From Coprothermobacter proteolyticus DSM 5265 (GTDB lineage: Bacteria > Coprothermobacterota > Coprothermobacteria > Coprothermobacterales > Coprothermobacteraceae), in assembly GCF_000020945.1 (NCBI RefSeq), contig NC_011295.1, positions 434,001 to 498,000 of the forward strand: 64,000 bases of DNA. The letters are read 5' to 3'. A program made the translations under genes and the position numbers. How positions within the stretch are numbered: the first letter of the stretch is position 1; each line of letters starts with the position of its first letter. Under the pieces are notes generated by a model. The model searched no databases and was not told the DNA's origin. It worked only from the letters and a program-made list of their open reading frames with translations. Below, piece after piece: positions 57,532-62,870 of this stretch.

Positions 57532-59532
57532 GTGCTCGAGTTTTTTGCGGTTGCAGTGCTTTTGCTGCTCACGGTTATTCTTAACGCTCGCTGGATTCTG
57601 GGCATAAAAGTGGAAAACGCTTTAGCAGCACAGATAAGCGGTCACATCCACGATGGTGCAAAGGCGTTCTTGTCCAGTGAGTACAAGGTTATGTTTCCAT
57701 GGATTGTTGTACTTTTTATTGTACTAGCTCTGCTCACAGGTTATAAGTCAGCCATTGCCTTCTTGGCAGGTGCTCTATTCTCCATTGCGGCGGGCTACAT
57801 TGGTATGCAGATCGCTACATTGGCAAATGTACGCACCACAGAAGCTGCTAGGAGAGGCAGTGGAGATGCGCTTTCTGTTGCTTTTTCAGCTGGATCAGTC
57901 ATGGGCATGACCGTAGTTGCCTTCGGTTTACTAGGGCTGGGGCTTGTGGTTTTCGTTTTTGGTGGTTTTGAAAAAGCCGGAGGCATTGTTAGTAGTTTTA
58001 GTTTGGGCGCTTCTTTTGTTGCTTTATTTGCTCGTGTGGGTGGTGGCATTTTTACTAAAGCTGCTGACGTTGGGGCTGACCTAGTAGGAAAGGTTGAGGC
58101 TAACATACCTGAAGACGACCCCCGGAATCCCGCAGTCATCGCAGATAACGTTGGTGATAATGTGGGTGATGTTGCCGGTATGGGAGCAGACTTGTACGAG
58201 TCCTATGTGGGGTCCATCGTCGCTTGCATTGTTTTGGCTTTGGCTGAGAAAAACATGGTCGGCTTAAGTTTTGTCTTGTGGGCCGTGTCTTTGGGTGCAC
58301 TTTCCTCCTGGTTCACCATATTACTTGTGAGAGGCATATCCTCTCGCTCCCACATGGAGCCTGCGAACGTGTTTAGAATGGGTAGTATATTGGTGACGCT
58401 GCTGGCTGTGGGTTTTGTTTGCCTTATTCCCATGTGGACTGGTGCAAGCTGGTCATATGTTGTTTCAACGGTGGCAGGCATGATTGTGGGCATAGCCATT
58501 GGGTTTATTACAGATTACTACACCATGGGCGCGCCCATAAAGGAAATAGCTAAAGCTAGCGAGACTGGAGCAGCTACCAACATTCTTTCTGGTATGGCGA
58601 TTGCCATGCAATCCACCTTTTTGCCAGTCTTGCTTGTAGGCCTAGCCACAATTGTCGCGTACCTCAGCGCAGGGCTGTTCGGTATTGCTTTAGCTGGCGT
58701 TGGTATGCTTTGCACTCTGGCGTATTCTTTGTCGGTAGATGCCTACGGTCCCGTGGCTGATAACGCTGGGGGCATAGCTGAGATGGCGCATTTTTCTCCT
58801 CAGGTGCGTGAGGTTACTGATGGTTTGGACGCTTTAGGTAATGCCACTGCTGCCATGGGGAAAGGTTTTGCTATCGCTTCAGCCGCGCTAACGGCATTGG
58901 CTCTGTTTGCTGCATTCAACAGTGCTGTGGGGATTAAGGCTTTGGATGTCTCAGACCCCAAGGTGCTCACAGGGGTCATGGTAGGAGCGGCTTCACCGTT
59001 TCTTTTCTCTTCCATTGTCATCAATGCCGTTTCCAGGACTGCTTTTGTCATCGTAAAAGAGGTCAGACGTCAGTTTAAAGAAATTCCTGGTTTGCTTTCA
59101 GGCCAAGCCAATCCAGATTATGTAGTCTGCGTGAGTATTAGTACTAGTCATGCTCTTAAAAACATGGTAGTACCTGCTCTGTTGGCACTTATTCTGCCTC
59201 TGGCTTCCTACTTCTTGCTTGGTGTTGAAGGGGTCGGTGGCGTACTTATTGGCCAAACTGTTAGTGGATTTGTGATGGCCGTTTACATGGCAAATGCAGG
59301 TGGCGCTTGGGATAACGCAAAGAAGCTTATCGAAGGTGGTTTCTTAGGTGGTAAAGGTTCTGAGGCCCACCATGCCGCAGTAATAGGTGACACGGTGGGT
59401 GATCCGCTAAAGGATACAGCTGGCCCCTCCATTAACATACTTATGAAGTTAAGCACGGTAGTGTCCCTCATCCTCATACCCATTTTTGTGCAAATGGGCT
59501 TGCCCGTGCTCATCGATCTATTTGCAAAATAA
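57532..59532 (+). CDS. hppA: Membrane-bound ion-translocating pyrophosphatase
   Basis: Couples PPi hydrolysis to H+ and/or Na+ pumping, about 16 membrane helices in 666 residues. Active-site motifs: DVGADLVGKVEANIPEDDPRNP, NVGDNVGDVAGMGADLYESY and DTVGDPLKDTAGPS. The GNATAAMGKGF segment (Ala where K+-independent enzymes have Lys) suggests a K+-dependent enzyme; Na+ or H+ specificity cannot be told from sequence by eye. GTG start behind GGGGAGGGGAGA. With PPDK it suggests PPi-based energy saving. Confidence 0.96.
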   Translation: MLEFFAVAVLLLLTVILNARWILGIKVENALAAQISGHIHDGAKAFLSSEYKVMFPWIVVLFIVLALLTGYKSAIAFLAGALFSIAAGYIGMQIATLANVRTTEAARRGSGDALSVAFSAGSVMGMTVVAFGLLGLGLVVFVFGGFEKAGGIVSSFSLGASFVALFARVGGGIFTKAADVGADLVGKVEANIPEDDPRNPAVIADNVGDNVGDVAGMGADLYESYVGSIVACIVLALAEKNMVGLSFVLWAVSLGALSSWFTILLVRGISSRSHMEPANVFRMGSILVTLLAVGFVCLIPMWTGASWSYVVSTVAGMIVGIAIGFITDYYTMGAPIKEIAKASETGAATNILSGMAIAMQSTFLPVLLVGLATIVAYLSAGLFGIALAGVGMLCTLAYSLSVDAYGPVADNAGGIAEMAHFSPQVREVTDGLDALGNATAAMGKGFAIASAALTALALFAAFNSAVGIKALDVSDPKVLTGVMVGAASPFLFSSIVINAVSRTAFVIVKEVRRQFKEIPGLLSGQANPDYVVCVSISTSHALKNMVVPALLALILPLASYFLLGVEGVGGVLIGQTVSGFVMAVYMANAGGAWDNAKKLIEGGFLGGKGSEAHHAAVIGDTVGDPLKDTAGPSINILMKLSTVVSLILIPIFVQMGLPVLIDLFAK

Positions 59533-59538
59533 AACAAA

Positions 59539-59590
59539 AAGGCGAGAGGAAACTCTGTAATTCAGAGTGTTCATGATATCCTCTCGCCTT
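59539..59590 (-). terminator. Rho-independent terminator of rnpB (and hppA side)
   Basis: A perfect 12-bp stem AAGGCGAGAGGA / TCCTCTCGCCTT encloses an inner hairpin ACTCTG-TAATT-CAGAGT. On the minus strand it is followed by TTTTTGTTTTATTTT, a strong T tract, so it mainly ends the RNase P RNA transcript. The plus side lacks a good T tract. Confidence 0.85.
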
Positions 59591-59613
59591 CTTATTCCAT
59601 TTTACAGTGGCAA

Positions 59614-59990
59614 CTACGAGTAGACGGTAAGCCGAGTTCTGTTCCCACCAAAACCGCGTTGCCTTCAAAAGTTTTGGTGGGTGGCAACCATTTATCTTGG
59701 CTTGCTGTTGCCAGCAAGCTCCAGCGGCCTACCCGCCAGCTCGCCGAGCAGGGTCACAGCTGGCTGCTTGGCCTTGCTCCGGATGGGGTTTACCGTGCCA
59801 GCACTGTCGCCAGTGCTGCGGTGGGCTCTTACCCCGCCTTTTCACCCTTACCTACCCAAACATTTGGGTAGGCGGTTTGTTTTCTGTGGCACTCTCCTTG
59901 AGGTCGCCCTCACTGGGTGTTACCCAGCATCCTGCTCTGTGGAGCTCGGACTTTCCTCAACCTTTTGGTTGCGGCTGCCTCGTCTACTCT
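59614..59990 (-). ncRNA. rnpB: RNase P RNA, bacterial class A
   Basis: Catalytic RNA for tRNA 5' maturation, about 377 nt. P1 is formed by GAGTAGACG at the 5' end (59989-59981) and CGTCTACTC at the 3' end (59626-59618). Universally conserved tracts are visible on the minus strand in order: GAGGAAAGTCCGAGCTCC, ACAGAAA, AAGGGTGAAA, GGTAAGAGC and the 3' ACAGAACTCGGCTTA. The 5' ~71 nt also encode the last codons of rsfS. Own promoter at 59997-60026 and own terminator downstream. Confidence 0.95.
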
Positions 59991-60315
59991 TTACATATTC
60001 TACCATGCTTGTCCAATGTGACTCAATATCGTAATATTCCCTGGCTCTTTGCGTGAAAATGTGAACTACGATGTCGCCTATGTCTACAAGCACCCAATCA
60101 CCTGGAGTATAACCTTCAACGCGGTAGGTGATGTTCTTTTTATCCAGTAGCTCTTCCAATGAGTCTGCCAGTGATTGGCTATGGGTGAGTGAGTTCGCAG
60201 TGCAAATAATGAAATAATCTGCTATGGTGTCCAGGGCTCTTATGTCAACGATTTTTATGTTTTCGGCTTTTTTCTCGTCAAGAAGCCTCTGAATGGCTTC
60301 CACGTCCTGATCCAA
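59920..60315 (-). CDS. rsfS: Ribosomal silencing factor RsfS
   Basis: Binds uL14 and blocks 30S-50S joining in starvation. Family core: IVDIRALDTIADYFIICTANS, GDWVLVDIGDIVVHIFTQRAREYYDIE. TTG 60315 follows AGGAGGTG by 8 nt. Natural family ends are around the REYYDLE region (~110 residues); here the frame continues through SRRGSRNQKVEESPSSTEQDAG, coded by the 5' end of rnpB, to a TAA at 59920 within the RNA gene (131 residues). The nucleotides for that tail are constrained by RNase P RNA structure, so the tail is likely non-functional. Confidence 0.92.
   Translation of the reverse strand: MDQDVEAIQRLLDEKKAENIKIVDIRALDTIADYFIICTANSLTHSQSLADSLEELLDKKNITYRVEGYTPGDWVLVDIGDIVVHIFTQRAREYYDIESHWTSMVEYVKSRRGSRNQKVEESPSSTEQDAG
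59997..60026 (-). promoter_or_regulatory. Promoter of rnpB inside rsfS
   Basis: On the minus strand TTGAGT (60026-60021), 18-nt spacer, TAGAAT (60002-59997). The predicted transcript start near 59990 coincides with the base of P1 of the RNase P RNA. It lies wholly within the rsfS coding sequence. Confidence 0.6.
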
Positions 60316-60348
60316 CGTCTGTTCACCTCCTTTCTTTTCTTTTTTGCT

Positions 60349-60930
60349 CTATGGGTAGTAAAGGTGGTTTTCGTGAATATATGTTTCCACTGTTTTTGGT
60401 ACTAAATAAGTTATGGGTTTTCCCTTAGCTACTCTTTGTCTTATGTACGTCGAGGAGACGTTTATCGGCGTCATGTCCGTAAAGATGGCTTCTGCTTCTG
60501 GTCTGGCTACAGTTATTGGTTTTCTCGGGACTACGATGAAAATAGCATTTTTTACGAGTAAGTCATACCTGCGCCAGTTGTGCAACTCTTCCCATTCATC
60601 ACTGCCTAATATGAAGTAGGGCTTTTCACCAAGCACGTGCTTTACTGACAAAATGGTTTCATATGAATATGTGGGTCTGGCTTCTCTTTCCAATTCCATG
60701 AGCACAAATTTGGGTTCCTCTTTTAGCGCCATCTCCAACATGTTGACGCGGTGAAAGTAGGGGACTTTCGCGCTGTCTTTGTGTGGAGGTATGTGAGTAG
60801 GGACAAACCAAACCCTGTCAAGATTAGCGGCTTCCATGGCTAGGTGGGCCATGAACAGATGACCTATGTGAACAGGATCAAAAACACCTGCAAGAAGGCC
60901 AGTTCTAGAGGATTTCAAAGGCTTTATCAT
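60349..60930 (-). CDS. nadD: Nicotinate-nucleotide adenylyltransferase
   Basis: Makes deamido-NAD from nicotinate mononucleotide and ATP. The nucleotidyltransferase motif GVFDPVHIGHLFMAH (HxGH type, ~15-29), PPHKDS, LGSDEWEEL and the C-terminal ISSTYIR-like NVSSTYIRQRV are intact. 193 residues. ATG lies inside obgE. In conserved order obgE-nadD-rsfS, but without the HD gene yqeK seen in Bacillus. Confidence 0.95.
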   Translation of the reverse strand: MIKPLKSSRTGLLAGVFDPVHIGHLFMAHLAMEAANLDRVWFVPTHIPPHKDSAKVPYFHRVNMLEMALKEEPKFVLMELEREARPTYSYETILSVKHVLGEKPYFILGSDEWEELHNWRRYDLLVKNAIFIVVPRKPITVARPEAEAIFTDMTPINVSSTYIRQRVAKGKPITYLVPKTVETYIHENHLYYP

Positions 60931-62164
60931 GTATGACTACGGTTTCTCCTTCTTTTGCACCCATTTGCCTTAGCATTTCCTCAAGTTTCTTACGTCTTAT
61001 CTCTCTTTGTACATACTGAAAATCCCAAGGTTGGGTGGTATCGTATCTGGATATGTACCGTGCCCATCTGCCTTCAACTACCCAGTATTCATCTTCTCTA
61101 CGAATGGAGAAATCCTCTGGCAAAGGTGGAAGCTCCATTGTCATGAATTCTGCAGTGGGTTCCTCTGTTGATAATGTGGGCGAAATAAGTTCAAATAAAA
61201 CGTCTACTAATTGATTAGTGCCTTCGCCTGTGGCCGCGCTTGTAAGCACCACGTGTGATTCTTTGTCAGCAAACTGCACTTTTAGCTGATCAATGTGCTC
61301 TGGCTGCAGTAGATCGATTTTGTTTAAAACTAGAACTCGCGGTTTTTCCAGTAAGTTAGGGTTATAAGCTCGAAGCTCACCAATAATCGTTTCATAGGCT
61401 TGCATGGGTTCATAACCATCGATGGCTGCTGCATCAATGACAATGGCCAGTACTTTGGTGCGTTCAACATGCCTTAAGAAGGTTAGGCCAAGTCCTTTTC
61501 CTTCATGAGCTCCCTCTATGAGCCCTGGAACGTCGCTTACTACAAATGATTGTTCAGCCTTTTTAACAATTCCCAGTACTGGAGATCGCGTGGTGAAGGG
61601 GTAGGGAGCTATTTCTGGTTTTGCCTTACTTATGACGGATATGAGTGACGATTTTCCAGCGTTAGGTAACCCCACAAGCCCCACATGGGCAACCAGTTTT
61701 AGTTCTAAACGGAGTCTGCGCATTTCTCCTTCATGCCCCAGCTCACGGAAACGCGGTGCTCGTCTAGTGGCAGTAGCCATGCGCGCATTGCCTTTTCCGC
61801 CTCGACCGCCTCTAGCTACTAGCAGTTTCATTCCTGGTTTGTCCATATCGACCACAGTTTGAGTTTCCAAGTCAGCAACTATGACGCCCACTGGTATGCG
61901 TATGAAGAGGTCCTTTCCATCTTTCCCGAACTGTTTTTGAGATCTACCTGGTTCACCGTCTTCAGCCCGAAACTCCTTTTGGTACTTGAAGTCATACAAT
62001 GTGAGAAGGGCAGGGTCGGTTACCAGGTATACATCGCCGCCTTTGCCCCCATCTCCGCCGTCAGGTCCGCCTTTTTCAATGAATTTCTCACGACGAAAAG
62101 AGGCGGCTCCATCGCCGCCCTTTCCACCGTAAACAATGATTTCCGCAGTGTCAATGAATATCAT
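60905..62164 (-). CDS. obgE: GTPase Obg/CgtA
   Basis: Essential 50S-assembly GTPase. N-terminal glycine-rich Obg fold (1-158: GGKGGDGAASFRREKF, GGDGGKGGDVYLV), G domain with GLPNAGKSSLI (~164-174), DVPGLIEGAHEGKGLG and NKIDLL, and a C-terminal OCT domain (~345-419; EYWVVEGRWARYISRYD). 419 residues. TAATG junction with rpmA. Confidence 0.96.
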   Translation of the reverse strand: MIFIDTAEIIVYGGKGGDGAASFRREKFIEKGGPDGGDGGKGGDVYLVTDPALLTLYDFKYQKEFRAEDGEPGRSQKQFGKDGKDLFIRIPVGVIVADLETQTVVDMDKPGMKLLVARGGRGGKGNARMATATRRAPRFRELGHEGEMRRLRLELKLVAHVGLVGLPNAGKSSLISVISKAKPEIAPYPFTTRSPVLGIVKKAEQSFVVSDVPGLIEGAHEGKGLGLTFLRHVERTKVLAIVIDAAAIDGYEPMQAYETIIGELRAYNPNLLEKPRVLVLNKIDLLQPEHIDQLKVQFADKESHVVLTSAATGEGTNQLVDVLFELISPTLSTEEPTAEFMTMELPPLPEDFSIRREDEYWVVEGRWARYISRYDTTQPWDFQYVQREIRRKKLEEMLRQMGAKEGETVVIHDKAFEIL

Positions 62165-62782: not shown

Positions 62783-62870
62783 TGGCGGAGGGGGTGGGAC
62801 TCGAACCCACAAGGCCCTTCCGGGCCGCCGGATTTCAAGTCCGGTGCCTTACCAATTAGACTACCCCTCC
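62783..62870 (-). tRNA. tRNA-Ser (UGA)
   Basis: Acceptor arms GGAGGGG/CCCCTCC, discriminator G, encoded CCA, anticodon loop CTTGAAA giving TGA, and a long variable arm (CGGCCCGGAAGGGCC region), which identifies a class II tRNA. T-loop GGGTTCGAGTCCC. Confidence 0.95.

Follow-up and report, generated by a model that had tools for sequence, protein, structure and literature searches.

How can a protein-coding frame and a structured catalytic RNA occupy the same nucleotides on the same strand, and from which transcript would the active RNA then be drawn? The question is raised by rsfS, which encodes a ribosomal silencing factor, and rnpB, which encodes class A RNase P RNA, a catalytic RNA for the trimming of tRNAs, in Coprothermobacter proteolyticus DSM 5265. 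The DNA studied is a 64-kb window of the single-contig, 1,424,912-base genome, and all coordinates are positions in this window. Both genes lie on the minus strand. The rsfS frame (59920-60315) is preceded by AGGAGGTGA, begins with TTG at 60315 and ends after 131 aa with TAA at 59922-59920. Its product is identified as RsfS by PF02410 (Pfam, 108.9 bits) and TIGR00090 (NCBIfam, 108.3 bits, cut-off 56.9), matches that exceed the curated cut-offs and cover the whole domain; residues 10-102 align with RsfS chains of solved structures. The rnpB gene (59613-59990) is complete, matching RF00010 (RNaseP_bact_a) over the full length of the model, positions 1-367, with 321.2 bits against a gathering score of 100. 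Because it is the only copy in a single-contig genome, its product is presumably catalytically active.

The neighboring genes point in the same direction. Upstream of rsfS is nadD (60349-60930, minus strand), followed by a minus-strand ORF at 60905-62164 read as obgE (Obg GTPase), a name taken from the sequence alone and not from a family search. The start of nadD and the end of the obgE-like ORF share 26 nt on this strand (60905-60930). A tRNA-Ser gene with a TGA anticodon is found upstream of the rsfS-rnpB gene cluster, also on the minus strand (62783-62870). On the other side, 3' of rnpB, a terminator-like hairpin followed by TTTTTG (59540-59589, minus strand) likely marks the end of both rnpB and the operon.

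Over 71 nt (59920-59990, minus strand) the two genes coincide, the end of rsfS being the beginning of rnpB. The frame stays open through the 5' strand of P1, through P3 and through GAGGAAAGTCC as far as GGGUAA, and its stop codon is the UAA of the ribozyme's own GGGUAAC motif. Within the overlap the codons read AAG AGT AGA CGA GGC AGC CGC AAC CAA AAG GTT GAG GAA AGT CCG AGC TCC ACA GAG CAG GAT GCT GGG TAA, the P1 5' strand GAGTAGACG (59981-59989, minus strand) encoding ..SRR and the protein terminating in ..SRRGSRNQKVEESPSSTEQDAG. A preliminary description of this DNA had reported an rsfS frame open through the rnpB 5' tract to a stop at 59920, and all of these sequence statements hold. It had also described a 24-codon tail past the usual family end. 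There are indeed 24 codons inside rnpB, but the tail is just ~17 aa longer than those of sister families.

A tract without stops is by itself not unusual here: among 157 rnpB genes, 68% have none in the same phase for 60 nt or more. It is the retention of the overlap in every family genome that exceeds chance. In the alignment of rsfS-rnpB junctions across related genomes that the preliminary description had proposed, the overlap is present in five of five Coprothermobacteraceae genomes (family f1, G000-G004), which comprise two genera with RsfS identity down to 70%. Its lengths are 71, 71, 71, 74 and 71 nt, G003 being counted as 71 because its reading of 60 nt reflects an Rfam match cut short at a contig end, while its sequence is arranged alike. 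The sole length change, in C. platensis (G001), adds 3 bases in the P3 loop and leaves the frame intact. A sequencing error or mis-assembly that deleted the rsfS stop, raised earlier as a possible source of the reading near 59990, is excluded by four other assemblies, made independently and among them that of C. platensis DSM 11748, in which the junction is identical. A chance move of rsfS beside rnpB in one genome is ruled out by the phylum-wide arrangement, with rsfS immediately upstream of rnpB in all nine genomes examined. Judged by these sequence comparisons, the overlap is both genuine and conserved, and the same DNA encodes a protein tail and part of a ribozyme. A structured catalytic RNA that is expected to be essential has thus shared same-strand nucleotides with a protein throughout the divergence of a family.

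Sister families place the rsfS stop differently. It lies 17 nt ahead of the Rfam rnpB 5' end in family f2 and 8 nt inside rnpB in family f3, earlier positions that agree with the proposed loss of a natural rsfS stop. In other phyla the pairing was not seen: none of 76 RsfS loci has an rnpB core motif close by.

Evidence that the overlapped nucleotides function in the RNA comes from P1. The fold of rnpB (z-score -6.85) is closed by a 9-bp P1 that includes the overlapped 5' strand: GAGUAGACG pairs with CGUCUACUC in C. proteolyticus, GAGCAGAC with GUCUGCUC in G001 and GAGCAGGCG with CGCCUGCUC in G004. Two pairs differ on both strands in these relatives (U5-A to C-G and A8-U to G-C). Since such two-sided changes fall inside the overlap, P1 forms in rnpB RNA, and the mature 5' end is therefore near 59990. 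The alternative of a mature end downstream of 59920, which would have removed the overlap from the RNA, is contradicted by this compensation. Both compensated changes fall at third codon positions, as does one further change, CGA to CGG, and SRR is kept.

A putative promoter for rnpB is located within rsfS. As previously described, TTGAGT (60026-60021) and TAGAAT (60002-59997) are separated by an 18-nt spacer and end 6 nt ahead of 59990 on the minus strand. The two elements differ in conservation. The -35-like TTGAGT is weak and is retained neither in G004 nor in the second genus, whereas an extended -10 of the TGnTAnAAT type, TGGTAGAAT (59997-60005), is conserved in all five f1 genomes, where it occupies the rsfS codons ATG GTA GAA TAT (M V E Y). 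Family f3 has TGGTAAAAT within its own rsfS in the same setting. Across f1, the degenerate, amino-acid-invariant codons of the -10 (GTA GAA TAT) are identical in 3/3 cases versus 9/59 in the rsfS body (chance ~0.004), an argument of low power given just three well-separated lineages in f1; these codons could also be kept for reasons other than a promoter. Similar elements are enriched at this position before rnpB genes in general. Among 156 rnpB loci, 38 hexamers with a -10-like match (5/6 or better) occur at -18 to -13, against ~4 expected per six positions, and a further 10 occur at -12, the commonest single -10 position and the one at which TAGAAT starts. Because the -10 is conserved, lies at the modal position and has a counterpart in f3, transcription of rnpB from its own start at ~59990 is likely.

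The protein tail was compared with those of other RsfS proteins. Counted from the conserved C-terminal Trp, the f1 tail is ~17 aa longer than the f2 and f3 tails. It is 17-18 aa above the median of 80 RsfS loci (four of them f1 members), yet within their observed range (median 11.5 residues past the conserved Trp region, IQR 10-22, maximum 35). AlphaFold predicts RsfS with a mean pLDDT of 86.8 from a 20-row alignment. The last helix extends to about residue 120 with dropping confidence, and residues 121-131 have pLDDT <50, so the tail is probably disordered. It is most likely an addition that this small ribosome-binding protein tolerates, rather than a new domain.

Overlaps of this kind are not confined to Coprothermobacteraceae. 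The preliminary description took separation from protein genes to be the norm for rnpB, a view at odds with 13 of 157 rnpB loci in which a supported upstream gene ends at least 40 nt inside rnpB, and with the co-transcription of Staphylococcus aureus rnpB with the gene before it (PMC3937233). The 157-locus survey favored high-scoring rnpB and deliberately added relatives of G000 and G029, so the count is not a frequency estimate, and support for upstream genes was judged partly by eye. Eight long ORFs reaching at least 40 nt into rnpB were excluded as unsupported: that of L212 has no Pfam match, and those of L147, L156, L176, L185, L187, L214 and L229 were judged by eye to be low-complexity or GC-rich reading. 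The supported genes encode RsfS, RNase HI, an EamA transporter and a zinc-ribbon-like protein; most enter in one phase and acquire a tail like EESPxxxGQxAG. Other upstream genes in the survey end a few nt inside rnpB. Unrelated proteins end alike because a frame in the phase GAG GAA AG usually runs on to the UAA of GGGUAAC before it meets a stop.

RNase HI offers a close parallel. In G029, G031, G037 and G036 it enters rnpB by 61-79 nt (61 reflecting a partial model match), with tails of EESPGPxGQxAG and a stop at the same GGGUAA motif, and in G212 it ends at +75. As in f1, these frames run in the same phase through GAGGAAAGUCC to a tail of the form EESPG..GQ..G, although the protein and the lineage are different. 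In G211, RNase HI in a different phase ends at +80. Relatives G032, G033 and G038 differ from f1 in that RNase HI stops at +31, in the P3 loop. Since P3-loop stops are gained or lost among these relatives, such tails are dispensable there. The comparable P1 differences in four RNase HI relatives are mostly first-position and amino-acid-changing. The EamA transporter of G236 ends at +83. G088 (L129) and G214 (L144) have in common a 128-129-aa zinc-ribbon-like protein, with no Pfam family above cut-off, that ends at +81 and +78, a 3-nt difference that preserves the frame. From the sequences compared, similar rnpB overlaps appear to have arisen repeatedly in other bacteria, making rnpB a natural test of how cells separate translation from RNA folding. 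Gene callers that bar overlap between coding sequences and noncoding RNAs could shorten or lose such proteins. As a separate observation, RNase HI is often directly upstream of rnpB across families, frequently ending a few nt away or inside (L006, L141, L154, L157, L201, L205, L219, L196, L007 and others).

Sense gene overlap is a known phenomenon, of which rsfS-rnpB appears to be a new variety, conserved and recurrent. As in other same-strand overlaps in bacteria, an upstream gene that loses its stop would extend as far as the first stop it encounters in the gene that follows; here, however, that following gene specifies a catalytic RNA, whose conserved core includes the new stop. S. aureus provides a closely related arrangement. 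Its rnpB follows a co-directional protein gene, gpsB (SA1279), and has a putative start of its own with a weak -35 as well as read-through from gpsB; the transcript is trimmed by RNase J, and its end is protected by P1 (PMC3937233). S. aureus rnpB also contains an ORF, SA1278 (PMC3937233), resembling the protein frame within rnpB here. The difference is that gpsB ends before rnpB, whereas rsfS of C. proteolyticus runs 71 nt into the ribozyme. A literature search, in which subscription journals were thinly covered, found no paper on an rnpB-rsfS or rnpB-rnhA overlap.

The anatomy of the locus, its conservation, the constraint on the -10, the covariation of P1 and the recurrence elsewhere are observed, and the account that best combines them, which we regard as probable as a whole, has three parts: ancestral loss of the rsfS stop, supply of RNase P RNA from an internal promoter and a tolerated tail. 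The rsfS stop, which in sister families is at or just ahead of the rnpB start, would have been lost in the Coprothermobacteraceae ancestor, and translation would proceed until it meets the UAA of GGGUAAC, a strongly conserved motif that holds the first in-frame stop thereafter. Most functional RNase P RNA would be initiated from the extended -10 in the MVEY codons, with a start at ~59990 and an end at the terminator close to 59540. Because this transcript would have no rsfS start codon, it would not be translated and could fold freely. Operon read-through transcripts would also contain rnpB and might be trimmed, perhaps by RNase J, a homologue of which is encoded in the genome; on these, ribosomes completing rsfS would traverse P1, P3 and the 5' strand of P4. 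We infer the start site, the division of labor between transcripts, the production of the tail and its neutrality. The observation in the preliminary description is thus confirmed, and its interpretation is partly supported.

Several other readings of the locus have been weighed against this account. RNase P RNA may come mainly from a rplU-rpmA-obgE-nadD-rsfS transcript that is cut by an endonuclease and then trimmed back to P1 by RNase J, with the internal promoter minor or absent. Such a route has a precedent in the S. aureus long co-transcript that is matured to RNase P RNA (PMC3937233) and is compatible with the RNase J homologue and with the finding of no minus-strand terminator ahead of rnpB in 59450-60500. 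We consider it unlikely, because an extended -10 is maintained at the modal position without synonymous drift, -10-like sites are strongly enriched there before rnpB generally, and processing would ruin the rsfS mRNA and compete with ribosomes over the overlap. A dual-coding explanation, in which the tail is functional and under selection so that P1 and protein are co-constrained, seems equally unlikely. All f1 changes in the P1 5' strand are synonymous third-position changes that keep SRR while the opposite strand compensates, and the frame survives a change in P3 length. However, only three P1-region sites are involved (chance ~0.04-0.08), the tail core EESPSSTEQDAG is accounted for by rnpB conservation alone and the final 11 RsfS residues are predicted to be disordered. 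A firm claim of selection on the tail is not supported, as the P1 wobble bias amounts to three sites and has no counterpart in the RNase HI relatives, whose tails instead show mostly amino-acid-changing P1 differences and P3 stops.

Translation might also regulate the ribozyme. If ribosomes ending rsfS melt P1-P4 on the co-transcript, high translation would lower RNase P output from that transcript, as the geometry permits, with the rsfS stop lying past P1, P3 and the 5' strand of P4. Such coupling is nevertheless improbable, as the internal promoter would bypass it and similar overlaps involving unrelated proteins argue against an RsfS-specific circuit. A broader version is speculative, if somewhat less improbable: the rnpB 5' tract would be a recurrent, ready-made C-terminal tail and stop for unrelated upstream proteins, and each co-transcript molecule would, through translation across P1-P4, be a messenger or a ribozyme precursor but not both, so that the supply of RNase P RNA would be tied to translation.

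A final observation concerns the other end of rnpB in family f2. In both L003 and L002, TTTTTT directly follows P1 and its flanks (GGGCCCAGTGAGAAAG and CTTCTCACTGGGCCC, respectively) at the rnpB 3' end, and in these genomes P1 might also act as the gene's intrinsic terminator.
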